Shown piece after piece: positions 13,295-26,302 of a stretch of DNA of 64,000 bases (positions within the stretch are counted from its first letter, which is position 1; each line of letters starts with the position of its first letter). The translations under genes and the position numbers were made by a program. Source of the DNA: Candidatus Thiodiazotropha endoloripes (GTDB taxonomy: Bacteria; Pseudomonadota; Gammaproteobacteria; Chromatiales; Chromatiaceae); the NCBI RefSeq assembly GCF_001708965.1, contig NZ_LVJW01000003.1, forward strand, positions 248,001-312,000, read 5' to 3'. The notes beneath the pieces are model-generated. The model was not told the DNA's origin and did not search any database. It worked only from the letters and a program-made list of their open reading frames with translations.

Positions 13295-14062
13295 TCACTG
13301 TTTTGGCAGCTCCTGAGAGTATCTGAGGATATCCACTTGCTGTTGTATATTGAGTGCGAGTACCGAGATCATCTGCTCACCGGGGTGGCCGTTACGTATC
13401 TTGTGCAATACTTCCCACGGATTCCTGTTGGCTACGGTTCCAACGAACTCGGGCTTGTTGAATGTCTTGAAATTGATCTTTCTGCCCTTGGTACCATGAC
13501 AGATAGCGCATAGGGAGTTGTACAGGGGCTTGCCCTTTCCCGGTGTTCCCTTGGCCTTTCCAGTATCACGGTCAATGTAGGCGTTCATATCCACTTGACC
13601 GCGGCTGATGAACAGTGCCAAAGCGGATAAGGTGTCATCGTCAATCATGCGCTGATCGTAACCATGACTGTCGCCACGGATGATCGCAGCGATGCTGTCG
13701 TGACTTGCCCCCTGCATGTCTCGTATACCCTTGATGCCCGTGTAATGAGACCCTGAGCCATAGGCTCCCTGGTTGCCAAGGTAGTCCCAGCCGTGGCATT
13801 CCTTGCAACGCCATGTGGTCAGTCCCCGTTTCTTGCCAGCGGCCGGGTAGAGGGGGTGGTTGTGGTGGAACTCCTGAATGCTCAGACCGCGCTGCTTCCG
13901 TTCTTTCTTATCAATCAGGTTCATCCAGTTGTCGTAGGCACGCCCTCCCAGTGCCAGATAATACTCCTCGTCTTCGTGTTCGGAAGTGGCGACAGCAATA
14001 GTCTGTATGATCAGTCCAATGCAGAACAAGAGTGTTGCGCTCAGTTTGATCCAGTCAGTCAT
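13295..14062 (-). CDS. Exported di-haem cytochrome c
   Basis: 255 residues: a hydrophobic N-terminal signal or anchor (about 8-25), a region rich in charged and aromatic residues, then two c-type haem attachment motifs, CKECH at 86-90 and CAICH at 185-189. Spacing of about 100 residues fits two tandem cytochrome c domains, the second followed by a Met-rich stretch (QMISVLALN) that may supply an axial ligand. Its ATG overlaps the stop of the upstream diguanylate cyclase by 4 bases, so the two are translationally coupled. The partner carries its own CxxCH motif in the periplasm, so the cytochrome may pass electrons to or from that sensor; this is inference. Confidence 0.87.
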   Translation of the reverse strand: MTDWIKLSATLLFCIGLIIQTIAVATSEHEDEEYYLALGGRAYDNWMNLIDKKERKQRGLSIQEFHHNHPLYPAAGKKRGLTTWRCKECHGWDYLGNQGAYGSGSHYTGIKGIRDMQGASHDSIAAIIRGDSHGYDQRMIDDDTLSALALFISRGQVDMNAYIDRDTGKAKGTPGKGKPLYNSLCAICHGTKGRKINFKTFNKPEFVGTVANRNPWEVLHKIRNGHPGEQMISVLALNIQQQVDILRYSQELPKQ

Positions 14063-15774
14063 GTTTCGTCTCCATCGTCCGGTTGCTGATCGCTATCTCT
14101 CGAGACTGCGAGGACAGCACGATTACGCCCCTGGTTTTTCGCCTCATAGAGCGCTTGGTCGGCCTGCTTCATGAAAGTATTGATGTCGCGGATGGGTTTT
14201 TGGCCAAGGGTGCAGGCCACACCCAGACTGATGGTGACCTGGAGTTCGTCAACCCGGGCCTGTTCCACACGGCGACGCAACTTCTCGGCAAACACCATGG
14301 CTCCCTCATTATTGGTGTGTGGCAGAATGATGCAGAACTCCTCACCGCCATAACGGCAGGGATGGTCGGTTTCACGGCAGGTGTTCATACAGAGACCACC
14401 CAGGGTGGACAAAACCCTGTCGCCTTGGTCGTGGCCGTAGGTGTCGTTGAAATGCTTGAAGTGGTCCACATCAAACAAGACAATGGACAACGGGGAATGG
14501 TGCCGGTTCGCCAGGTGCAACTGCTTCTTGAGGGTTTTTTCCAGGCTGCGCCGGTTGTAGAGGCCGGTCAGTTGATCATTGAAGGAGAGTTGACGAAGTT
14601 CGGATTCCAGGCGCTTTTGCTCTGTTACGTCCTGAATCAGGGCAGCAGAGCCAATGGGTTCACCGTCGCTACGGCGTATACGGGCCGCGTAGATCTGCAG
14701 TAACCGATCGTTGAATTTGAGGATTTTGCTATCCTCGACCTTCCCGTCCATTAGCTGTTGCAGCACGTCGGGTTGATCCGCAAGATGTTTGAAGCCCTCC
14801 CGAATGATTTGTCCCATACTTTTACCGAGCAGCCGCTCGGCCGCCGGATTGACCAGCACGACGCGGTCGTCGTGGTCAGTGACCACAATTCCCTCGCTGG
14901 AGCTGAGGATGATGGTGGTTAGCTTATCCTGTTCCCGTTGCAGGCCGGTATAGGTCTGTAACAGTCTCTCGATCATGCTGTTGAAGCTGCGTGCCATGCG
15001 GCCGAGTTCATCATTGCCAAGTACAGGCACCTGTTGGGTAAAATCACCCTCTTCAACCTGCCTCATGGCCTTGGTCACCGACTGGACCGGTACAATGATG
15101 GCTCGGCGCATCAGTGCCGCAGTAATCAGCAGCATAATCAGTAGAAATATTCCGAGGACGACTAAAGCGGTTTGCCAGGTCTTTTCTATTTCGTCATGGG
15201 TGGCCTGCAGGGAGGAGGTCAGTTTGATGACACCAAGTACTTGATCCCCCTGTTCATGGCAGCGATGGCAGCCCTCGTCATTGACGAGTGGTTTCAGAAA
15301 GGTTATCAAGGGTTCCCCATTGCTAGCTTGCTCATTGTATAGAACGGTCTGTTCTTCCTGAACTGTCCTGCGGAATTCAGGGGTTTCCGGGGCGATTACC
15401 TGTCGCTCGGTTTCCTCACCCCTGGGGGTGAACAGCTCCTCACCCTTGTTCCAGTTGACCTGGTGAATGGTGTTGTTATCAAGGAAGGCCTGCTTGCCGT
15501 CTGTTCGGAGAATTATAAATTCAGTGACATCTGGAGCTTCCAATAATTGACGGGCATACTTCTCGGCGGCTTCAGCGGAACCGGTGATCATGATGAAGTG
15601 CAGGCCTCTGTCTACGCTGTTCAACAGCTCCTGGCGCCCCTTGGTGTACTGTTCGAGAATGCTCTGTTTCTCGCTCCAGGTATAGAACAGCACCATACCG
15701 AGAAGGCTGACCAGCGCGGAAACCCCAACCACAACCAGAATCTTGTTTCCGATGTGATCCCGAATGAGTCGCAC
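14059..15774 (-). CDS. Haem-motif (DUF3365/Tll0287-like) sensor diguanylate cyclase
   Basis: 571 residues. A membrane helix at about 12-31, then a periplasmic domain of the DUF3365/Tll0287-like type holding one c-haem motif, CHRCH at 169-173, followed by a second membrane helix (about 200-220), HAMP, PAS (about 285-390) and GGDEF. The active site is RYGGEEF with an RxxD inhibitory site (RETD) five residues upstream, so it should synthesise c-di-GMP under product control. There is no EAL domain. The single haem would sense redox state or a gas such as NO or O2; that is known for related haem sensors and inferred here. It is the first gene of a two-gene operon with the di-haem cytochrome. Confidence 0.9.
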   Translation of the reverse strand: MRLIRDHIGNKILVVVGVSALVSLLGMVLFYTWSEKQSILEQYTKGRQELLNSVDRGLHFIMITGSAEAAEKYARQLLEAPDVTEFIILRTDGKQAFLDNNTIHQVNWNKGEELFTPRGEETERQVIAPETPEFRRTVQEEQTVLYNEQASNGEPLITFLKPLVNDEGCHRCHEQGDQVLGVIKLTSSLQATHDEIEKTWQTALVVLGIFLLIMLLITAALMRRAIIVPVQSVTKAMRQVEEGDFTQQVPVLGNDELGRMARSFNSMIERLLQTYTGLQREQDKLTTIILSSSEGIVVTDHDDRVVLVNPAAERLLGKSMGQIIREGFKHLADQPDVLQQLMDGKVEDSKILKFNDRLLQIYAARIRRSDGEPIGSAALIQDVTEQKRLESELRQLSFNDQLTGLYNRRSLEKTLKKQLHLANRHHSPLSIVLFDVDHFKHFNDTYGHDQGDRVLSTLGGLCMNTCRETDHPCRYGGEEFCIILPHTNNEGAMVFAEKLRRRVEQARVDELQVTISLGVACTLGQKPIRDINTFMKQADQALYEAKNQGRNRAVLAVSRDSDQQPDDGDET

Positions 15775-15901: not shown

Positions 15902-16885
15902 TTATTGATTCGATGGAGGGTCTTCGGAGCTCAGGATTCTCCGTCGGGCACGACTGATAAACGAATCCCGGCTTTTGTTGCGGAGTTGCCTGGGTGTATT
16001 CCCTGTGAAACTTTTATAGGCTTTTCTGAAAGAGGCTGCTGATTGGTACCCACATTTCCCGGCAATTTTCTCGATGTTGAGCGTGGTGTTTTTCAGCAGG
16101 TTGGTGGCTTCCTGCATGCGCCATGAGGTCAGGTATTTGACTGGCGGCATTCCCACGTATTCATGAAATTTTTGGGCGAAGGCTGTACGGCTCATACCAA
16201 TTGTTCGGGCCAGATCTTCCAGGGTCCACTCCTCATTGAATCGGGTATGGATCAATTGCAGGGCGTGGCCAATTTGCGGAGTGATCAATGCCTTGAGGTA
16301 ACCCTGTGACAGGTTGGCGGAATAACAATTGCGCAGCAGGTGCAGCAACAGCAGGCGCGCCAGGTCACGAAGTGCGATATTGCGCCCAGGGTTGTTGTTC
16401 TTCAGTTCGATAAGGATTGTGTCTATGACATGGGCGATGCCATCAGTCGTTGGGTTGTTGCGTGCATCAGTCAGCAGAACGATATCGGGCATATCATTTA
16501 ACAGCAACTGTGCGGCATCCGATTCAAATTCATAAAAGCCGCATAAAACGCTGGTCAAACTCTCCTGTTTTATACAGTCTTTTGGTTGGTTGATGTTTTC
16601 CCTGTTCTGTGGTTTTCGACTATTTGCGAGTACATGGTGAGAATCATGCGGAAACATCACCAGGTCACCAGCCTGGATTAACCGGGGTTCTGTGCCATCC
16701 ATGTGTACCCATGCCTGACCATTGTCGACGAGATAGAAGGGGATCTGTCCGGTGCCTGCAATATCAATGGCCCATTCTTCGCAATAGCTGCGGTGCATGA
16801 AAATTCGTGCCTGCAGATGAGTCCTGGTCAGAAAATGGGTTAATGCATCATCTTTGATGTCGTTATTGGGATCATGCATTTCCAT
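15902..16885 (-). CDS. AraC family transcriptional regulator with N-terminal cupin
   Basis: 327 residues. The N-terminal half looks like the cupin ligand-binding domain of the AraC_binding/cupin_6 group (FYLVDNGQAWVHMDG, then IQAGDLVMFPHDSHHVL). The C-terminal 100 residues form the double helix-turn-helix: LEDLARTIGMSRTAFAQKFH and IEKIAGKCGYQSAASFRKAY with the closing FTGNTPRQLR. It is divergent from the Rieske-enzyme operon across 218 bases that contain a direct repeat spaced 24 bases apart, and most probably controls it. Cupin-type AraC regulators often answer to aldehydes, thiols or other small reactive compounds; the ligand is unknown. Confidence 0.9.
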   Translation of the reverse strand: MEMHDPNNDIKDDALTHFLTRTHLQARIFMHRSYCEEWAIDIAGTGQIPFYLVDNGQAWVHMDGTEPRLIQAGDLVMFPHDSHHVLANSRKPQNRENINQPKDCIKQESLTSVLCGFYEFESDAAQLLLNDMPDIVLLTDARNNPTTDGIAHVIDTILIELKNNNPGRNIALRDLARLLLLHLLRNCYSANLSQGYLKALITPQIGHALQLIHTRFNEEWTLEDLARTIGMSRTAFAQKFHEYVGMPPVKYLTSWRMQEATNLLKNTTLNIEKIAGKCGYQSAASFRKAYKSFTGNTPRQLRNKSRDSFISRARRRILSSEDPPSNQ

Positions 16886-17103: not shown

Positions 17104-18723
17104 ATGAATAAAATCCCAATTGCCCAGTGGTCTGAACTAGGGCCGGAAAAGCCAGCTTATGCTTTAGTTGCTGATGTGGATCTGGTGATCGTGCGCTGGC
17201 CTGATGAGGAGCAGGTCTCGGTGCTCTATGGTCGTTGTGCGCACCGCGGCGCACTGATGTCGGACGGCCGCATCGAGGGCAACAATATTGTCTGCGGCCT
17301 GCATGACTGGGACTACGAATACAAAACCGGGATCAGCTCTTACAACTCATCGGAAAAGCTGCACCGTTTCAAAGCCTGGATCGAAGCTGGCCAGGTCTGG
17401 GTGGATGAAGACGAAATTCGCCAATGGACGCAAACCAATCCGCAACCATACAACCGTGAAGCCTACCAGGGACTGTATCAGGACATTCACGGCGCGCCAG
17501 AAGAACCGCATACCAAATACATCCAGCATCTGGCCGAGCACGGCCTCTCCAAGGTCGGTCATCATGGTCGTGTCGGTGCCATGGGCGTGCCGCGTGACCT
17601 GTTGCCCAAGTGGGAGGAGATCCAGATACTCACCGCGCAACTGCACAAGGTACCGATGCTCGATGACGATCCGGTCGGCACTGAAGTCGTCATCGGTCCC
17701 AATGCCGAAAAACCGCTGAAACTGGATCGGCCCTTGTTTGTGTCGGACATGAGTTTCGGTGCCCTGTCGGAAGAAGCCAAGGTGGCTTTGGCGATGGGGG
17801 CTGAAATGGCCGGCACCGGCATCTGTTCCGGAGAAGGCGGTATGCTGCCCGACGAGCAACAGGCCAACAGCCACTATCTGTATGAATTGGCCTCGGCACG
17901 TTTTGGTTATTCCATGGATAAGGTCAAACAATGCCAGGCCTTCCATTTCAAATGCGGTCAGGGTGCCAAAACCGGTACTGGCGGTCATCTGCCTGGCAGC
18001 AAGGTCAAGGGCAAGATTGCCGAAGTGCGCGGTCTCAACGAAGGTGAGTCTGCGATTTCGCCCGCGCGTTTCCCCGACTGGGACAACATCGACGAATATC
18101 GCCGTTTCGCCGCGGTAGTGCGAGATAATACCGGTGGCATTCCCATTGGCGTGAAACTGTCGGCCCAGCACATTGAACGTGATATCGAAGCGGCACTGCA
18201 GATCGGTGTGGACTACATCATTCTGGATGGACGCGGCGGCGGCACAGGGGCTGCGCCATTGATTTTCCGTGACAATATTTCCGTACCGACCATTCCTGCT
18301 CTGGCGCGTGCGCGCCGTTATCTTGATAAAAAAGGCCGTAACGATGTGTCACTGGTGATTACCGGCGGGCTGCGCCTGCCGGCAGATTTCATCAAGGCCA
18401 TGGCTTTGGGAGCGGACGCCATTGCCGTGTCCAACTCGGCGATTCAGGCGATTGGCTGTCTGGGCATGCGTGCCTGCCACACCAACAACTGTCCGGTCGG
18501 TATCGCCACGCAGAAACCGGAATTGCGCAAACGTCTCAAAATCGAAAAAGGGGCCAATCAGCTAAATAATTTTTTCCGGGCTTCAACCGAGCTCATGCAG
18601 GTCATGGCGCGCGCCTGTGGCCATGACCATCTCAGCAAGTTCTGCATTGATGACCTGAGCACATTTGACCGGGACATTGCGCATCTGACCGGCATTGAAT
18701 ACGCGGGTGTGAAGCTGGACTGA
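17104..18723 (+). CDS. Rieske-fused glutamate synthase-like FMN/Fe-S oxidoreductase
   Basis: 539 residues. Residues 1-100 form a Rieske [2Fe-2S] domain with all four ligands: C45-x-H47 (CAHRG) and C64-x2-H67 (CGLHDWD). Residues about 130-520 match the FMN-binding synthase domain of glutamate synthase (GltB-like): ISPARFPDWDNIDEY, GVKLSAQHIERDIEAAL, the flavin loop ILDGRGGGTGAAP, and the Cys cluster CLGMRACHTNNCPVG, which binds a [3Fe-4S] centre in GltS. There is no glutaminase domain, so this is not an ordinary glutamate synthase; stand-alone synthase domains act on other substrates. The Rieske cluster suggests electron entry from, or exit to, a soluble carrier. It is followed 33 bases later by a second Rieske-fused enzyme. 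Confidence 0.85.
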   Translation: MNKIPIAQWSELGPEKPAYALVADVDLVIVRWPDEEQVSVLYGRCAHRGALMSDGRIEGNNIVCGLHDWDYEYKTGISSYNSSEKLHRFKAWIEAGQVWVDEDEIRQWTQTNPQPYNREAYQGLYQDIHGAPEEPHTKYIQHLAEHGLSKVGHHGRVGAMGVPRDLLPKWEEIQILTAQLHKVPMLDDDPVGTEVVIGPNAEKPLKLDRPLFVSDMSFGALSEEAKVALAMGAEMAGTGICSGEGGMLPDEQQANSHYLYELASARFGYSMDKVKQCQAFHFKCGQGAKTGTGGHLPGSKVKGKIAEVRGLNEGESAISPARFPDWDNIDEYRRFAAVVRDNTGGIPIGVKLSAQHIERDIEAALQIGVDYIILDGRGGGTGAAPLIFRDNISVPTIPALARARRYLDKKGRNDVSLVITGGLRLPADFIKAMALGADAIAVSNSAIQAIGCLGMRACHTNNCPVGIATQKPELRKRLKIEKGANQLNNFFRASTELMQVMARACGHDHLSKFCIDDLSTFDRDIAHLTGIEYAGVKLD

Positions 18724-18756
18724 CGTTTAAAAAACCAAACCAAAGGAGCATGACAG

Positions 18757-20721
18757 ATGGCGGACATAGATCTCATTTGGCACAAGGTGTTGAGTAAAGA
18801 CGAGTTACCGGAAGGTCGGGTCACTTCGGTTACCTGCAAGAAAAAAACCCTCTGCATGAGCCACCATGAGGGGCAATACGGCGCGCTTGACAACAAATGT
18901 CCGCACCAGGGCGGCCCGCTGGGCGAGGGGAGTATCGAAAACGGCCTGCTGCGTTGTCCCTGGCACGGTTGGGATTATCATCCGCTGACAGGCAAGGCGC
19001 CGGGTTTTGACGATGGTGTGGAAACCTTTCCGGTGGAAATTCGCGACGACGGCATCTATGTCGGTCTGCCGCCGGAAGAGACCCACATCGGTACCGTTGG
19101 CGATCTGATGATGAAAACCATGACCAACTGGGGCGTCAATCAGGTATTCGGTATGGTGGGCCATTCCAATCTTGGTGTGGCCGATGCCCTGCGCATCCAG
19201 GAGAAGGCCGGCCGCCTGAGTTATTACGGTATCCGCCACGAAGGCGCGGCCGCCTTTGCCTGCTCGAGTTATGGCAAACTGACCGGCCGTCCGGCCGCCT
19301 GTCTGGCGATTGCCGGTCCCGGGGCCACCAATTTGCTGACCGGATTGTGGGATGCCAATGTGGATCGTGCTCCGGCACTGGCTTTGACCGGCCAGGTCGA
19401 GACCCAGGTGCTGGGTCCGGGTGCGTTCCAGGAGATTGATCAGGTGGGGGCATTCGGCAGCGTCGCGCAGTGGTCACAAACCGTTATGCATGACAGCAAA
19501 CATACTGAACTCATGAACCTGGCCTGCAAAAGTGCCATTCTCAACAGCGGCGTGTCGCACCTGATTTTCCCCGATGAAGTGCCCAAGCGTGAACTGGACA
19601 ATCCGCCACCGGCTGGCACACCCGAAGGTCGTTTGCCCTCGCGCGAAATCTCACCGCCGGGCGACGCCCTGCAGGCAGCAGTGGAGTTGTTGTCCAACAG
19701 CAAAAGGCCGGTCATTGTGGTCGGGCATGGCGCGCGTTTCCAGATGGACGCGGTGATTGCCCTGGCCGAACAGCTTAAGGCGCCGGTCATCACCACCTTC
19801 AAAGGCAAGGGTCAGATCGCCGACACTCATCCGCTGGCCGGCGGCGTACTGGGTCGCAGCGGTACACCGATTGCGAGCTGGCTGATGAATGAATCCGACA
19901 GCCTGCTGGTGTTTGGTGCGAGTTTTTCCAACCATACCGGCATCACGCAAAAACGTCCGACCATCCAGGTGGACTACGATCTCATGACGCTGGCCAAGTT
20001 CCATGCCATTGATGTGCCGGTATGGGGTGAGGTTGGTGTGACTGCCAGACTGTTGTCTGAGGCTTTGGCCGGTTACAGCGGTAGCGAGGACCAGACAGAT
20101 GATGTCGCCACACGCTGGGCCATCTGGCGTGAGGAAAAACAGCGCCGCACCCTGGATGACCGTGGCAAAGGCATCAACTCGGCCATCCTGTTTGATAAGC
20201 TCGCCAGCAGCGCCGACAAAGATGCCATCATTGCCGTGGATGTTGGCAACAACACTTACGCGTTCGGTCGTTACTTTGAATGTGAAGAGCATTCGGTGCT
20301 GATGTCGGGTTATCTCGGCTCCATCGGTTTCTCCTTCCCGGCAGCCATGGGCGCCTGGGCCGCGACCCAGGAAGATGACCCGCGCTTCAAAGGCCGTCAG
20401 GTTATTTCGGTCTCTGGCGATGGTGGTTTTGGTCAGTATCTGGCCGAGATCAACACCGCAGTCAAATACGGCATGAACATCACTCATGTGCTCATGAATA
20501 ACGGTGAACTGGGCAAGATCAGCAAGGAACAGCGCGCTGGCAACTGGGAGGTCTGGCAGACCAACCTGCACAACCCCAACTTTGCTGAGTATGCGCAACT
20601 TTGCGGAGCCAAAGGCCTACGCGTGACCGATGCCGCCGATCTGGAAGGCGCATTCAATGAAGCACTGGCCCACCCGGGGCCAGCCCTGGTGGAAGTGTTG
20701 ACTGATGCGGAACTGGTCTGA
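18757..20721 (+). CDS. Rieske-fused thiamine pyrophosphate enzyme (pyruvate oxidase-like)
   Basis: 654 residues. Residues 1-105 are a Rieske domain with C48-x-H50 (CPHQG) and C67-x2-H70 (CPWHGWD). From about 110 onward it is a ThDP enzyme of the pyruvate oxidase/acetolactate synthase group: the catalytic Glu in RHEGAAAFA, GPGATNLLTGLWDA, a central nucleotide-binding-type domain (RPVIVVGHGARF...), and the ThDP-Mg motif from SGDGGFGQYLAE to MNNGELGK. Sequence around RHEG...GLWDA resembles pyruvate oxidase (PoxB) more than acetolactate synthase. A Rieske domain on such an enzyme could carry electrons away from the flavin or hydroxyethyl-ThDP. The substrate is unknown. It is 3 bases upstream of the antiporter gene and clearly in the same operon. 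Confidence 0.85.
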   Translation: MADIDLIWHKVLSKDELPEGRVTSVTCKKKTLCMSHHEGQYGALDNKCPHQGGPLGEGSIENGLLRCPWHGWDYHPLTGKAPGFDDGVETFPVEIRDDGIYVGLPPEETHIGTVGDLMMKTMTNWGVNQVFGMVGHSNLGVADALRIQEKAGRLSYYGIRHEGAAAFACSSYGKLTGRPAACLAIAGPGATNLLTGLWDANVDRAPALALTGQVETQVLGPGAFQEIDQVGAFGSVAQWSQTVMHDSKHTELMNLACKSAILNSGVSHLIFPDEVPKRELDNPPPAGTPEGRLPSREISPPGDALQAAVELLSNSKRPVIVVGHGARFQMDAVIALAEQLKAPVITTFKGKGQIADTHPLAGGVLGRSGTPIASWLMNESDSLLVFGASFSNHTGITQKRPTIQVDYDLMTLAKFHAIDVPVWGEVGVTARLLSEALAGYSGSEDQTDDVATRWAIWREEKQRRTLDDRGKGINSAILFDKLASSADKDAIIAVDVGNNTYAFGRYFECEEHSVLMSGYLGSIGFSFPAAMGAWAATQEDDPRFKGRQVISVSGDGGFGQYLAEINTAVKYGMNITHVLMNNGELGKISKEQRAGNWEVWQTNLHNPNFAEYAQLCGAKGLRVTDAADLEGAFNEALAHPGPALVEVLTDAELV

Positions 20722-20724
20722 GTC

Positions 20725-22023
20725 ATGAATGAAGCCAGCCTGTTACTGGTGTTGCTCGGCATTGCCTTGTTCGCACTGTTTTCCGGGCCGATCAGCCGCG
20801 GCAGCCTGACACCGCCGATGACCTTTACCGCCCTGGGTCTACTGCTCAGTCCGATTGCGCTGGGTTGGATCAATCTCGGTTTGGACAATGCGGTGATTCA
20901 CGCCATAGCAGAGATCACTCTGATTCTGGTTTTGTTTACCGATGCGGCGCGCATCAAACTCAAGAGCCTGTGGTCGGACCATGATGTGCCGATGCGCCTG
21001 CTGCTGATCGGCATGCCGCTGACCATCGGTCTGGGTATGGTGCTGGCGCTGGCCGTGATGCCGCAACTGCTGTTGCTTGAGGCGCTGGTGCTGGCTGTCA
21101 TCCTGGCGCCGACCGATGCGGCCTTGGGACAGGCGGTGGTCAGTAGTCCCAAAGTGCCGGAACGCATACGTCAGTCGCTTAATGTGGAGAGCGGGCTCAA
21201 CGACGGTATTGCCTTGCCAGCTCTGCTGTTTGTGATTTCGTTTGCCGCTGGCAGTCATTCTGGTGAACAGAATACCGTCTGGCTGAATTTTGTGTTGCTG
21301 CAACTCACATTGGGTCCGCTGGTTGGTGCGCTGGTTGGCTGGTCGGGATCCAAAGCCATCAATATGGCGATTGAAAAACGCTTTCTGACCCATGAATTTT
21401 GCAATATTTATTTGCTGAGCATGACGTTTATTGCCTACCTGGCGGCCGACCTGGTCGGCGGCAATGGTTTTATCGCCGCTTTTGCCGCCGGTGTGGCGAC
21501 CGGTAATACGCTCAAGCATGTCAATGAGGAGATTTATGAGTTTGCCGAATCCGAAGGCCAGTTATTGAACCTAGTGATTTTCTTCCTGTTCGGTGTGGCA
21601 CTGTTGCCGCAGGTGTGGCCACGAATCAGTGGCGAAATGGTGGTTTACGCCCTGTTGAGCCTGACGGTTATCCGCATGCTGCCGGTGTTTGTTTCGTTGC
21701 TGGGTAAACAGCTGCGCTGGGAAACCGGTCTTTTTGTGGGTTGGTTCGGGCCGCGTGGCCTGGCCTCGATTCTGTTTGTCTTGTTGGTGCTTGAACATGC
21801 TCAACTGCTGAACCAGACATTGGTGTTTGATACGGTGATTGTCACGGTTTTTTTTAGCATCATTCTGCATGGCCTGTCGGCACTACCGGGGGTGAGCCTG
21901 TATGCCAGGGTATTGAAACTCTGCCAGCGTCGCGGTGATGACATTTCATCGGAACAGGCCAGTGTCGAAGCTATGCCATTGCGACTCTCTTCCACCTTCA
22001 AGGATATGGAGGATGGGTCATGA
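20725..22023 (+). CDS. CPA1-type cation:proton antiporter
   Basis: 432 residues with about 12 membrane segments of the Na+/H+ exchanger fold. LAPTDAALGQAVV and VESGLNDGIALP are the conserved discontinuous-helix motifs, the latter carrying the Asp of the ion site (Asn-Asp), and WFGPRGLASILFVLL is the conserved Arg helix. The C-terminal tail is short (about 40 residues). It swaps Na+ or K+ for H+ across the inner membrane. It lies in the operon of the Rieske enzymes and is followed, with a 4-base ATGA overlap, by a small ORF and then a K+ channel, which suggests a need to adjust pH or K+ when the operon is on. Confidence 0.92.
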   Translation: MNEASLLLVLLGIALFALFSGPISRGSLTPPMTFTALGLLLSPIALGWINLGLDNAVIHAIAEITLILVLFTDAARIKLKSLWSDHDVPMRLLLIGMPLTIGLGMVLALAVMPQLLLLEALVLAVILAPTDAALGQAVVSSPKVPERIRQSLNVESGLNDGIALPALLFVISFAAGSHSGEQNTVWLNFVLLQLTLGPLVGALVGWSGSKAINMAIEKRFLTHEFCNIYLLSMTFIAYLAADLVGGNGFIAAFAAGVATGNTLKHVNEEIYEFAESEGQLLNLVIFFLFGVALLPQVWPRISGEMVVYALLSLTVIRMLPVFVSLLGKQLRWETGLFVGWFGPRGLASILFVLLVLEHAQLLNQTLVFDTVIVTVFFSIILHGLSALPGVSLYARVLKLCQRRGDDISSEQASVEAMPLRLSSTFKDMEDGS

Positions 22024-22246: not shown

Positions 22247-23188
22247 ATGTCAGGATTCAAGTCAAAACTCTATCTGTTGCTGGAAGCTATACCCCGCCAA
22301 AGTCGTGCACAGCGTATTTTTGATCTTTTTTTATCACTGTTGATCCTGGCTAATGTATTGGCGGTGATTGTGTCGACCGTCAACAGTTTTGCTGTCGAAT
22401 ATGAACGTTGGATTCATTGGTTCGAGATTTTTTCAGTGGCTGTGTTCACGCTGGAGCTGTTATTGCGCTATTGGGTGGCGGACATGGCCGGTGCTGAAGG
22501 GGAAAAATCTTCCCGCCTTAAATTCTGGGCCAGCCCGTACACCCTAATTGATATCCTCGCAATTGCACCCTTTTATTTCGGTTTTATTTTGAATGCCGAT
22601 CTGCGTCTGTTACGACTGCTGCGTCTGTTTCGCGTTTTCCGTTTCAGTCCCTATTTCCGTAGCCTGGCGTTGCTAGGTAATGTGATTCGCCAAGAATACC
22701 GCCCTATGCTATCGGCTCTGACGATAATTGTTATCCTGATGCTGATTGCCGCAAGTGGTATTTACCTGCTTGAACGAGAGAACCAGCCGGACACCTTTGG
22801 TGATTTGCCCTCGGCTCTATGGTGGGTGGTGGTGACACTATCCACCGTCGGTTACGGTGATGCCGTTCCTCAAACAGGGTTTGGTCGGATGCTGGGCGCC
22901 GTGATCATGATTCTCGGCGTGGGCATGGTGGCCTTGCCGGCCGGCATGCTGGCTTCACGTTTTTCCCAGGTCATGCACAGCCAACAGGATCTTTTTCGCA
23001 TGTTTGTTGAAAAACAGATCGAGAGGCAAGGGGCTGTTGATGAGATGCAGGTGGAACAACGCCGTCAGCAACTGTTCATCAGCCGGGCTGAGGCTCGCTC
23101 CATTATCGCCAACACGATTGAGGTGCTGCAGTCGCCGCTGAATTTTTGTCCGCATTGCGGAAAAAAACTACCCGATCATCAATCCTAA
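22247..23188 (+). CDS. Voltage-gated potassium channel (Kv/ion transporter family)
   Basis: 313 residues with six membrane segments. The voltage sensor S4 is plain (DLRLLRLLRLFRVFRFS at about 118-134) and the pore holds the K+ selectivity filter TVGYGD (200-205). S6 follows (MLGAVIMILGVGMVALPAGML), then a helical tail. The extreme C-terminus reads FCPHCGKKLPDH, a zinc-ribbon-like CPxCG knuckle. It should let K+ pass in response to membrane potential. Length and layout match bacterial Kv channels except for the ribbon. It overlaps none of the operon's other genes if the next one starts at 23203. Confidence 0.92.
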   Translation: MSGFKSKLYLLLEAIPRQSRAQRIFDLFLSLLILANVLAVIVSTVNSFAVEYERWIHWFEIFSVAVFTLELLLRYWVADMAGAEGEKSSRLKFWASPYTLIDILAIAPFYFGFILNADLRLLRLLRLFRVFRFSPYFRSLALLGNVIRQEYRPMLSALTIIVILMLIAASGIYLLERENQPDTFGDLPSALWWVVVTLSTVGYGDAVPQTGFGRMLGAVIMILGVGMVALPAGMLASRFSQVMHSQQDLFRMFVEKQIERQGAVDEMQVEQRRQQLFISRAEARSIIANTIEVLQSPLNFCPHCGKKLPDHQS

Positions 23189-23202
23189 AAAAGGATATTA
23201 CC

Positions 23203-24030
23203 GTGACAGCAACTCTTCCCTCATTGATTCTCGCCGACTGGGTAGAAACCCGTGATGCCATTCATCAATACGCCCGCATCATCGGCAAGATACGCGGCTT
23301 TTACATGCCCAAGGCAAAACACTGGTGGCATATCACCCTTACAGTGAATGCACATGGCCTGACAACGACGCCTTTTCCTGTAAGTGGTGGAACTCTGGAA
23401 ATGCAACTCGATCTGATTTCACATCAGTTATCGATCTTCAGCAATACGGGATGGAATTGCGGCATCCCTCTTAAGGGAAACAGTGCTGCCGGGATGCGTC
23501 AGCAGATCACGCAACTGCTCGCTACTCAGGGCATCGATCTGGATGAGCAGCTGCTGAGCGCTTTTGAGGATGAAAGCATACTGGCTTATGATGCGGATAC
23601 TGCGGATGATTTTCACCGCGCCCTCAGTTGGATTGATGTGGTGTTCCGGACTTTCAAAGGTGGATTGCGCCAGGAAACCAGTCCGGTGCAGTTGTTTCCG
23701 CATCACCTCGATATTGCGATGAACTGGTTTTCCGGCAGGCTGGTGCCCGGCGTGGATCCGGCCGACGAGGATACTGCGGATGAGCAGATGAACTTTGGTT
23801 TCGTCAGCGGCGACGCTTCAATAGATGAAGCTTATTTTTATGTTACCGCATATCCCATACCTGAAAACTGGTCTGGCCTGGCATTGTCACAAGGGGCGTA
23901 TTGGCATACCGAAGGCTGGGTCGGAGCGATTCTGCCGTATGCCAGGTTGCTGAAAGCGAACGATCCGCAGGCCATGCTGCTTGAATTCCTGCAACAGCTG
24001 CAGGGCCATGGTGCTGCGCTGATGAAGTAA
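23203..24030 (+). CDS. DUF5996 family protein
   Basis: About 275 residues. LADWVETRDAIHQYARIIGKIRG and KHWWHITLTVNAHGLTTTPFP are typical of DUF5996, and the family's later half is also present (VQLFPHHLDIAMNWFSG; YFYVTAYPIPENW; GAYWHTEGWVGAILPYARL). It has several conserved His and Trp residues, but no enzyme activity is known. I chose the GTG at 23203 because AAGGAT lies 5 bases before it; the frame runs back to 23146 within the channel gene. It lies 41 bases before egtB and is probably co-transcribed with it, with a 24-bp palindrome in between. Confidence 0.78.
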   Translation: MTATLPSLILADWVETRDAIHQYARIIGKIRGFYMPKAKHWWHITLTVNAHGLTTTPFPVSGGTLEMQLDLISHQLSIFSNTGWNCGIPLKGNSAAGMRQQITQLLATQGIDLDEQLLSAFEDESILAYDADTADDFHRALSWIDVVFRTFKGGLRQETSPVQLFPHHLDIAMNWFSGRLVPGVDPADEDTADEQMNFGFVSGDASIDEAYFYVTAYPIPENWSGLALSQGAYWHTEGWVGAILPYARLLKANDPQAMLLEFLQQLQGHGAALMK

Positions 24031-24071: not shown

Positions 24072-25340
24072 ATGCAAGTAGCAGTAGACAAAAAACAAAT
24101 CCCTGCTCGCGAGAAGTTGATCAATCGCTTCCTCGACGTGCGGACATACACCGAAACTTTGTGTCGTCCGTTACAGACGGATGATTACCAGATCCAGTCC
24201 ATTATGCAGACCAGTCCGCCCAAGTGGCATATTGCCCATGTCACCTGGTTTTTTGAGACTTTTGTTTTGCCGCATTTTAATCCGGCTTACACACCCTTTA
24301 ACCCGGTCATGGATTTTCTGTTCAACAGCTATTACTACACGCACGGTCAGATGCATCCGCGTCCGAACCGCGGACTTCTGTCAAGGCCGACCGTGGCTGA
24401 GATTTATGACTACCGCGCCTATGTCAATGAACAAATGCTGCAGTTGATGCATAACATTGATGACTCCCGCCGTGAGGAACTGGCTTTTCGTGTGACCCTT
24501 GGCTTAAACCATGAACAACAGCACCAGGAATTGCTGCTCATGGATGTCAAACACAATTTCTCGGTCAATCCGGTCAAGCCGACTTACCGCGACGATCTGA
24601 AAATACCACAGGGACAGAGCCGACCTGTGCGATGGCTTGAGCAGGCTGGCGGCATTCATGAAATCGGTTTTGCCGGTGAAGGTTTCGCTTATGATAACGA
24701 GACACCGCGCCATCAGGTCTTGCTACGGGACTATCGCCTGGCTAGTCGCTTTGTCACCAATGGCGAATACCTTGAGTTTATCAGGGATGGGGGATACGAC
24801 GATGTGGCGTTGTGGCTGTCGGACGGCTGGGCCCTGATTAAAAAAGAAAATTGGACACAACCTCTGTACTGGCAACAAGGTGACGATGGCTGGCGACAGT
24901 TCACTTTGGGTGGCATGCGTGAGCTCAATGAGCATGAACCGGTTTGTCACCTGTCCTATTTTGAAGCCGACGCCTACGCGCGTTGGGCGGGTAAACGCCT
25001 TCCGCTCGAAGCGGAGCTGGAGCAGGCGCTGTCGATGATGCCTGTCACAGGGAATTTTACCGAATCTGATTTTTTACACCCGGTACCTGCATCAGAGCAA
25101 GGCCAGTGGTTCGGCGACCTTTGGGCCTGGACCTCGTCACCCTACACGGCGTATCCAGGTTTCAAGCCCCTGGAAGGCTCTATGGGTGAGTACAACGGAA
25201 AGTTCATGTCCAACCAGATGGTGCTGCGCGGCGGCAGCGCCGCAACACCTGCCGGTCACACCCGCGCGACTTACCGTAATTTTTTCTACCCGAATGAACG
25301 CTGGGCCTTTACCGGCCTGCGTCTGGCGGAGGATGCCTGA
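24072..25340 (+). CDS. egtB: Ergothioneine biosynthesis sulfoxide synthase EgtB
   Basis: 422 residues. The N-terminal DinB-like half carries the non-haem iron ligands: H56 in KWHIAHVTWFFE and the H-x3-H-x-E motif (H147, H151 in LGLNHEQQHQELL). The C-terminal half is the formylglycine-generating-enzyme-like domain (FAYDNETPRHQVLLRDYRLA; LSYFEADAYARWAGKRLPLE; VLRGGSAATP; RNFFYPNERWAFTGLRLA). EgtB joins a thiol donor to trimethylhistidine with O2. Length and motifs are complete. The stop overlaps egtD by one base. No egtA, egtC or egtE is present here, so either Cys is the direct donor or the other steps are encoded elsewhere. Confidence 0.95.
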   Translation: MQVAVDKKQIPAREKLINRFLDVRTYTETLCRPLQTDDYQIQSIMQTSPPKWHIAHVTWFFETFVLPHFNPAYTPFNPVMDFLFNSYYYTHGQMHPRPNRGLLSRPTVAEIYDYRAYVNEQMLQLMHNIDDSRREELAFRVTLGLNHEQQHQELLLMDVKHNFSVNPVKPTYRDDLKIPQGQSRPVRWLEQAGGIHEIGFAGEGFAYDNETPRHQVLLRDYRLASRFVTNGEYLEFIRDGGYDDVALWLSDGWALIKKENWTQPLYWQQGDDGWRQFTLGGMRELNEHEPVCHLSYFEADAYARWAGKRLPLEAELEQALSMMPVTGNFTESDFLHPVPASEQGQWFGDLWAWTSSPYTAYPGFKPLEGSMGEYNGKFMSNQMVLRGGSAATPAGHTRATYRNFFYPNERWAFTGLRLAEDA

Positions 25341-26302
25341 TGCAGAACGTCACTTTTCATGATCACAAGCAGCAGGCTTTGAGTTTCCTGGATGCCGTCG
25401 TCGAAGGTCTGTCGCAGGAGAACAAAAGCATACCGCCGAAGTTTTTTTATGATGAGCGCGGTTCCGAGCTTTTTGACCGGATCTGTGAACAACCCGAGTA
25501 TTATCCGCCATCGGTTGAGCGCAAGATGCTGTCCGAACTGTCTGCCGAGATCGCTTCATTGACCGGGCAGAATCGTCTGCTGATCGAACCGGGAGTGGGT
25601 AGCGGCGCCAAAGTGCGCCTGTTGCTGGATGATCTGAAGCCTTCGGCTTTTGTGCCCATGGATATCTCTTTTGATTATCTCAAAACCGTGGCCACTCAAC
25701 TGGCGGCTGAATACCCATGGCTGCCGGTGCATGCCGCCTGCGTGGATTTTTCTCATTCCCTGCCGCTGCCGGATGAGGCGCCGGACAGCCCGAGGTTGGT
25801 GTTCTTTCCGGGCTCGAGCCTGGGTAATTTTGATATGACGGAAGCGGAAGCATTTCTCAAACTGGTGCGTGAAGTACTGGGCGAAGAGGGCATGCTTCTG
25901 ATCGGCTTGGATACCAAGAAACCTGAGTACGTGTTGAATGCGGCTTATAACGACGCGGCTGGTGTGACTGCCGAATTCAATAAAAACCTGTTGCATCGCA
26001 TGCGCGATGAACTCAAAATCGAGGTCGATCCCAGATCATTCGATCATCATGCTTTTTATAACGCCGCAGCCGGACGTATCGAGATGCATCTTGTCAGCAG
26101 ACGGGATCAATTATTACACCTGAACGGATTTTGCTTTGAATTTGAGCAGGGTGAGTCGCTGCATACGGAGAATTCCTATAAATACGAACCGGAGGAGTTC
26201 CTGGACCTGGCATCAAAGGCGGGTATGGTTACGGTAAGACACTGGTTGGCGGAAGAGGGTTTGTTCGGCATCTACCTACTTGAAACTACTGCGCTCGGGT
26301 AG
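25340..26302 (+). CDS. egtD: L-histidine N-alpha-methyltransferase EgtD
   Basis: 320 residues matching EgtD end to end: IPPKFFYDERGSELFDRICE, the SAM-binding loop IEPGVGSGAKVRLLL, VFFPGSSLGNF (the substrate and SAM-site motif), LIGLDTKKPEYVLNAAYND and a C-terminal IEMHLVSRRDQ with EKFLD-like EEFLDLASKAG. It trimethylates histidine to hercynine, which EgtB then oxidatively sulfurises. TGATG overlap with egtB shows translational coupling. Ergothioneine would protect against peroxide and singlet oxygen. Confidence 0.95.
   Translation: MQNVTFHDHKQQALSFLDAVVEGLSQENKSIPPKFFYDERGSELFDRICEQPEYYPPSVERKMLSELSAEIASLTGQNRLLIEPGVGSGAKVRLLLDDLKPSAFVPMDISFDYLKTVATQLAAEYPWLPVHAACVDFSHSLPLPDEAPDSPRLVFFPGSSLGNFDMTEAEAFLKLVREVLGEEGMLLIGLDTKKPEYVLNAAYNDAAGVTAEFNKNLLHRMRDELKIEVDPRSFDHHAFYNAAAGRIEMHLVSRRDQLLHLNGFCFEFEQGESLHTENSYKYEPEEFLDLASKAGMVTVRHWLAEEGLFGIYLLETTALG

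Follow-up and report, generated by a model that had tools for sequence, protein, structure and literature searches.

Two adjacent Rieske fusion enzymes in Candidatus Thiodiazotropha endoloripes and a possible undescribed redox pathway

Rieske clusters are familiar from respiratory complexes, oxygenases and ferredoxins, and flavocytochrome b2 is an example of a one-electron carrier domain fused to the N-terminus of a flavin mononucleotide (FMN) barrel dehydrogenase, the same logic as in the locus described here. The closest published relative is a fusion of CDGSH domains to a glutamate synthase (GltS) module, named type 5 CISD (Lin et al. 2011, PMC3174974; also PMC5859297), for which no function is stated in the available parts of these papers. 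A 64,000-nucleotide stretch of the Candidatus Thiodiazotropha endoloripes genome (assembly GCF_001708965.1, contig NZ_LVJW01000003.1, positions 248,001 to 312,000; hereafter the window) holds two adjacent genes whose products carry a Rieske [2Fe-2S] domain, in one case joined to a GltS-type module (Rieske-GltS) and in the other to a thiamine diphosphate (ThDP) enzyme (Rieske-ThDP). They are read here as parts of an undescribed redox pathway of Bacteria and haloarchaea, in which a GltS-type enzyme, a ThDP enzyme and a haem-b membrane protein would be linked by Rieske clusters, the carrier being swapped elsewhere; we give this reading a probability of about 0.45.

Rieske-GltS (539 amino acids, positions 17104..18723, + strand) was delimited from its open reading frame, domain matches and relatives. 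Pfam placed a Rieske domain at residues 3-76 (PF00355, E-value 7e-12; 17104..17424, +) and a Glu_synthase module of the FMN/[3Fe-4S] type at residues 195-506 (PF01645, 7e-95; 17686..18621, +), and returned no glutaminase match, the N-terminus being occupied by the Rieske domain. The cluster ligands C45, H47, C64 and H67 were invariant in an alignment of 35 Rieske-GltS sequences, the window's own included, and so were C452, C458 and C463, which by alignment fall on what we take to be the [3Fe-4S] site of glutamate synthase. The FMN-barrel module and these three cysteines are common to the glutamate synthase large subunit (GltB and the ferredoxin-dependent Fd-GltS; PDB 1ofd, 1ea0, 7mfm). Besides the lack of a glutaminase match, Rieske-GltS differs from it in the motif GAKTGTGGHLPG (residues 287-298), where TGTGGH stands in place of the PGEGGQ found in true GltS and in a GltB-like protein encoded elsewhere in the window genome (L005, ~34% identical to the core). 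PGEGGQ is presumably the active-site motif of true GltS, and residues aligned with Synechocystis K966, Q969, K972, R992 and E903 (counted by hand), to which we likewise assume roles in Fd-GltS, were kept. The name 'glutamate synthase without glutaminase' was dropped on account of the changed motif and the GltB-like protein present elsewhere in the genome.

The N-terminus of Rieske-GltS looks like an exchangeable one-electron carrier, because CDGSH or rubredoxin replaces the Rieske domain in its relatives. Among 122 distinct GltS cores, selected for similarity rather than at random, 92 carried Rieske, 22 CDGSH, two rubredoxin and six none of these. Identity between the window core and the CDGSH forms was 65-70%, apart from one form at 59%; Vibrio plasmids, for instance, encode a core ~67% identical that has CDGSH motifs in the place of Rieske, and Vibrio fortis has a CDGSH form. 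The GltS module of the rubredoxin forms (L155, L156) was ~46% identical. In a quick core tree with a midpoint root and long outer branches, the Rieske forms fell on one side of a branch (Shimodaira-Hasegawa-like approximate likelihood ratio test, SH-aLRT, 96), with CDGSH next and rubredoxin further out. Type 5 CISD thus has tandem CDGSH where the window protein has Rieske, and shares with it the GltS module, an N-terminal His-ligated [2Fe-2S] domain and the residues T290, T292 and H295, which were kept in >97% of the 92 Rieske forms and >90% of the 22 CDGSH forms. Since these residues are kept in both, the reaction is probably the same and the carrier alone differs; judged from the residues, the chemistry of the module looks constant across carrier forms and unlike that of glutamate synthase. 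Flavocytochrome b2 (PDB 1fcb, 1ltd) was among the structure matches and differs in its haem domain, its substrate lactate and its barrel family. A further relative without an N-terminal carrier (L157) is 41% identical, shares H295 and stands with a glutamine-synthetase-like gene and a trimethylamine monooxygenase. We liken it to MgsC of N-methylglutamate synthase, which we take to be a GltS module with no glutaminase in its chain.

Rieske-ThDP (654 amino acids, 18757..20721, +; open reading frame, domain matches and model comparison) begins 33 bp after Rieske-GltS. It combines a Rieske domain at residues 8-81 (PF00355, 4e-16; 18778..18999, +), whose ligands C48, H50, C67 and H70 were invariant among 26 aligned Rieske-ThDP sequences including the window's own, with a ThDP core defined by Pfam (TPP_enzyme N, M and C) and alignments (19093..20697, +). 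Within this core, H136 is conserved, and the GHSN motif, Glu162, GDG, Lys587 and Glu591 each departed in at most one of the rows aligned there, in a 47-row alignment that includes haloarchaea and a Mycobacteroides plasmid. The best solved relative by sequence was Escherichia coli PoxB (26% identity), followed by other pyruvate oxidases and the pyruvate:quinone oxidoreductase (PQO) of Corynebacterium glutamicum. In the predicted fold (mean predicted local distance difference test, pLDDT, 83.7), PoxB chains had the top template modelling scores among the matches listed (up to 0.89 by target), and an acetohydroxyacid synthase entry ranked first by Foldseek E-value, just ahead of the PoxB chains. 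PoxB possesses a C-terminal membrane segment; the alignment stops at residue 528 of its 572, so Rieske-ThDP appears to be without that segment, and it differs further by its N-terminal Rieske domain and by Lys587, which aligns with a Phe of PoxB (Phe465 by count on the alignment), an aromatic position that we presume to be functional. Likeness to PoxB and PQO (PDB 3eya, 9ev6) extends over the whole ThDP fold, Glu162 and GDG; Rieske-ThDP, too, is likely to export electrons. The pyruvate oxidase equivalogs of NCBIfam scored far under their cut-offs (PRK08611, 374 against 742; PRK09124, 291 against 792), and together with Lys587 this led us to drop the name 'plain pyruvate oxidase'. A Rieske oxygenase was also set aside: the Rieske domain is present, and the mononuclear-iron catalytic domain had no Pfam match in either protein. 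The changed active-site residues of the two proteins argue against a plain glutamate synthase or pyruvate oxidase.

The two Rieske domains with their eight ligands, the absence of a glutaminase half and the 33-base spacing had all been claimed in the initial annotation, and agree with the domain matches, alignments and coordinates given above. Its view that neither architecture is standard also holds, both fusions being widespread, unusual and without a named function; plasmid records carry only the generic names 'glutamate synthase-related protein' and 'thiamine pyrophosphate-binding protein', and neither fusion was found annotated as an enzyme with a known substrate.

Co-occurrence was counted in three genome draws within the phylum of the window genome: 398 genomes, 248 genomes of one family (f56, by tree position probably Roseobacteraceae) and 56 relatives of the window genome. 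A match starting no later than residue six was scored as Rieske-GltS; the count takes in partial matches (G278, G136, G490, G548, G643, G661) and leaves out a few fragments without an N-terminus (such as G160, G272, G206, G226). Rieske-ThDP, Rieske-GltS and both together were present in 5, 12 and 5 genomes of the first draw (Fisher p ~1e-8), 14, 23 and 13 of the second (p ~1e-14) and 15, 21 and 14 of the third (p ~3e-7), in tests uncorrected for shared ancestry and with G000 and G183 each occurring in two draws. These counts support the earlier proposal that the two genes act together. That they always co-occur did not hold: Rieske-GltS was present in 30 of 32 different Rieske-ThDP genomes, the exceptions being G583 and G666 (the latter 89% complete and 6% contaminated), and 24 of the 54 Rieske-GltS genomes were without Rieske-ThDP at the cut-offs used. 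The Rieske-less GltS core (mostly CDGSH, with two of 24 being fragments of uncertain type) was rejected as a partner of Rieske-ThDP, as it showed no association (2/14 against 24/248, p 0.63), a point in which type 5 CISD differs from Rieske-GltS. Around CDGSH- and rubredoxin-GltS genes no common neighbour was seen by eye among the genes listed; in L150 an antiporter-like gene lies in the vicinity.

A pattern scan of one genome per species (84,980 species) returned at least 574 stretches with a Rieske-GltS relative, of which the best 80 were used. The Rieske pattern was present in all 80, among which L007 and L008 (the latter Ca. T. taylori) both matched at 97%. Labels included Pseudomonadota, Myxococcota, Acidobacteriota, Nitrospirota, Nitrospinota, Cyanobacteriota, Planctomycetota, Fidelibacterota and others; most loci come from metagenome bins, so single taxon labels may be wrong. 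Rieske-GltS was also found in cultured records (Labrenzia sp. THAF82, Actibacterium pelagium, Zarconia navalis). Of the 80 loci, 25 also hold the Rieske-ThDP gene; 23 of them have it downstream and on the same strand, 16 of the 23 with a gap of at most 100 bp (measured between match ends).

The haloarchaeal plasmids L087-L090 carry Rieske-ThDP, three of them together with Rieske-GltS, among genes annotated as mercury(II) reductase, pirin, peroxiredoxin, DsrE, TauE and M20 peptidase. A Mycobacteroides plasmid (L091) holds a Rieske-ThDP relative 54% identical; ~3 kb from it, on the opposite strand, is a cation:proton antiporter gene. As for copies of Rieske-GltS, the window genome has a gene remnant (L004; G000 contig C6, 76188-76448) that matches residues 450-536 at 80% and adjoins an apparent RNase HII gene (by eye), G648 has two full-length copies, and G650 has one Rieske-GltS and one Rieske-less GltS core with an internal stop.

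A third fusion, in which the Rieske domain stands at the C-terminus, behind a ferric-reductase-type membrane domain (FerRed-Rieske; domains checked in two proteins, one from the family draw), was found within 8 kb in 7 of the 80 loci. Labrenzia sp. THAF82 (L081) has all three fusions. In the second draw it was present in 13 of 14 Rieske-ThDP genomes, against 23 of 248 overall (p 1e-14). Its position in these 13 genomes was within 4 kb in seven, on another contig in four and more than 0.7 Mb off on the same contig in two (G516, G561), so the association is more than physical. Of a set of seven genes (the antiporter, Rieske-GltS, a small membrane protein, FerRed-Rieske, proteins of 254 and 89 amino acids and Rieske-ThDP), six stand together in L083, L138, L139, L141, L213 and L219, and no locus was called with all seven. 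In a tree of the Rieske domains, limited by few columns, many open forks and weak outgroups, Rieske-ThDP and FerRed-Rieske lay nearer each other, and a very long branch led to Rieske-GltS. Two or more of the three fusions thus probably had separate origins, which would argue for selection for a Rieske carrier. FerRed-Rieske-related genes also lie ~3-5 kb from a ThDP-enzyme gene on Rhizobium plasmids, and the sole relative tested there (L136) has no Rieske domain. A protein of ~255 residues without a Pfam match (L138:7397-8161, L079:5528-6292) accompanies FerRed-Rieske in seven of seven loci and, in the one sequence read, contains a Cys/His-rich stretch.

As a full explanation, we consider it somewhat short of an even chance that both proteins are oxidoreductases working in a single electron-transfer pathway. 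Each would consist of an old enzyme permanently wired to a Rieske domain as its one-electron carrier. The GltS module, presumably holding FMN and a [3Fe-4S] cluster, would interconvert an amino acid and an imine, or a related pair of 2-oxo and 2-hydroxy acids, without glutaminase, and the ThDP module would carry out the oxidative decarboxylation of a 2-oxo acid, which may bear a further negative group for Lys587 to bind. Electrons would pass through the Rieske clusters and, in many relatives, to the ferric-reductase-type haem-b Rieske membrane protein and on to the quinone pool; in the window genome we infer another acceptor. The net direction would be oxidative, from amine to 2-oxo acid in the first enzyme, followed by decarboxylation in the second. 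A circuit of this kind is suggested because three unrelated folds carry the same cluster, tend to be co-inherited, and one of them swaps its carrier; a Rieske electron network, as envisaged in the initial annotation, is likely, and is supported by the co-occurrence of the fusions.

Several observations weigh against this explanation. Lys587 in the place of the PoxB Phe makes oxidative decarboxylation itself uncertain, the Rieske-GltS structure model is weak in its active-site loops (mean pLDDT 72.6), and the oxidative direction draws on background values of carrier potentials. FerRed-Rieske was not found in the window genome. The 24 of 54 Rieske-GltS genomes without the ThDP partner indicate that Rieske-GltS also works without Rieske-ThDP, and only three of five plasmid records with a full-length Rieske-ThDP relative (H41-H45) had Rieske-GltS among the matches listed; it was not among them for the Haloferax larsenii and Mycobacteroides plasmids, for which the plasmid records were searched and the chromosomes were not.

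The main rival runs in the opposite sense: Rieske-ThDP would oxidise a 2-oxo acid and pass electrons from Rieske to Rieske, and the GltS module would use them to reduce an imine, giving a reductive amination that needs neither NAD(P)H nor glutamine. A donor is expected to be found rarely without its acceptor, as is the case for Rieske-ThDP (30 of 32 genomes), in 23 of 25 loci its gene follows that of Rieske-GltS on the same strand (in 16 of them at most 100 bp away), and Rieske-GltS has retained the GltS fold and the cysteines of the cluster. We nevertheless regard it as unlikely, given that Rieske-GltS without Rieske-ThDP is common (7 of 21 in the relatives, 24 of 54 in all) and that the membrane partner suggests electrons leaving the system. 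CDGSH, rubredoxin and Rieske centres are moreover of fairly high potential, unlike the ferredoxin of glutamate synthase, and this too speaks against a ThDP-driven reduction.

Still less probable is a stress or detoxification module, in which the pair and its neighbours would handle reactive electrophiles or oxidants and feed electrons to a defence reaction. The antiporter next door, the EgtB- and EgtD-like genes of the window and of 9 and 7 of the 80 loci, the RclR match of the regulator and the mercury(II) reductase, pirin, peroxiredoxin and DsrE genes around the haloarchaeal plasmid copies are all compatible with it, but the RclR score was 104.5 bits where the cut-off is 400, most of the 80 loci have no Egt-like genes, and no stress gene showed as firm a link to the pair as the membrane Rieske protein does, none having been sought genome-wide. 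The exchange of Rieske for two other electron carriers on the same core, and the co-occurrence of a third Rieske fusion even at distant loci, make it slightly more improbable again that the Rieske domains have a structural or a regulatory, redox-sensing role in two enzymes whose ordinary reactions are separate and merely co-regulated, a view favoured by the many loci among the 80 that hold Rieske-GltS without any of the ten neighbour genes sought.

All three families (GltS, ThDP and Rieske) have been described before, as has the CDGSH-GltS fusion; the pathway taken together stands a fair chance of being new. No description of Rieske-GltS, Rieske-ThDP or FerRed-Rieske was found in the open papers searched, the ferric-reductase fusion never having been named in the searches, and Rieske fusions are not described in the available parts of PMC6037941, PMC5859297 and PMC3174974. 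Here Rieske clusters appear to join two enzyme folds of central metabolism, along with a membrane protein, in a single circuit. Should this be true, it would give ThDP enzymes a new electron exit beside quinone, O2 and ferredoxin, offer a testable role for type 5 CISD proteins, and provide natural carrier swaps on one flavoenzyme that are useful for the study of electron transfer. Cultured marine bacteria and haloarchaea carry the system, which opens it to testing.

The third gene of the run, absent from the initial annotation, begins 3 bp past the Rieske-ThDP gene and encodes a cation/proton antiporter of 432 amino acids (Na_H_Exchanger, PF00999, 2.9e-46; 20725..22023, +). It is followed by possible accessory genes on the + strand, namely an ion channel (22247..23188; relative in 2 of 80 loci), a DUF5996 protein (23146..24030; PF19459, 5e-56), whose listed TTG start falls inside the channel gene and may lie too far upstream, and two genes (24072..26302; FGE-sulfatase with DinB_2, and Methyltransf_33) that we call EgtB-like and EgtD-like, of the presumed ergothioneine type, from their domain content. 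In Halorarius the antiporter likewise has a potassium-channel gene beside it. Relatives of the antiporter and of DUF5996 were each found in 18 of the 80 loci. As many contigs end near the locus, a filter for flanks of at least 4.5 kb on both sides was applied, and the 49 loci left held ThDP in 16, the antiporter in 16, DUF5996 in 14, EgtB in 6, EgtD in 5, FerRed-Rieske in 6 and AraC in 3. DUF5996, a family to which no function is assigned, sits between Rieske-GltS and the ThDP gene in some loci, e.g. L070. A transported acid, considered because of TRAP-/NMT1-type transport and two-component genes in L138 and L139, was dropped for want of a common cluster.

Upstream lies an AraC-type regulator with a Cupin_6 domain (15902..16885, - strand), whose best NCBIfam match is RclR, far under the equivalog cut-off. 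Its divergent position had been described correctly; its use as evidence of joint function did not hold, since a relative stands near Rieske-GltS in only 4 of the 80 loci (3 of these with the ThDP gene), and it was rejected as a marker of the system. Further upstream in the window (13295-15774), a cytochrome c-type protein adjoins a HAMP/PAS/GGDEF protein with a CxxCH motif in its sensor part.

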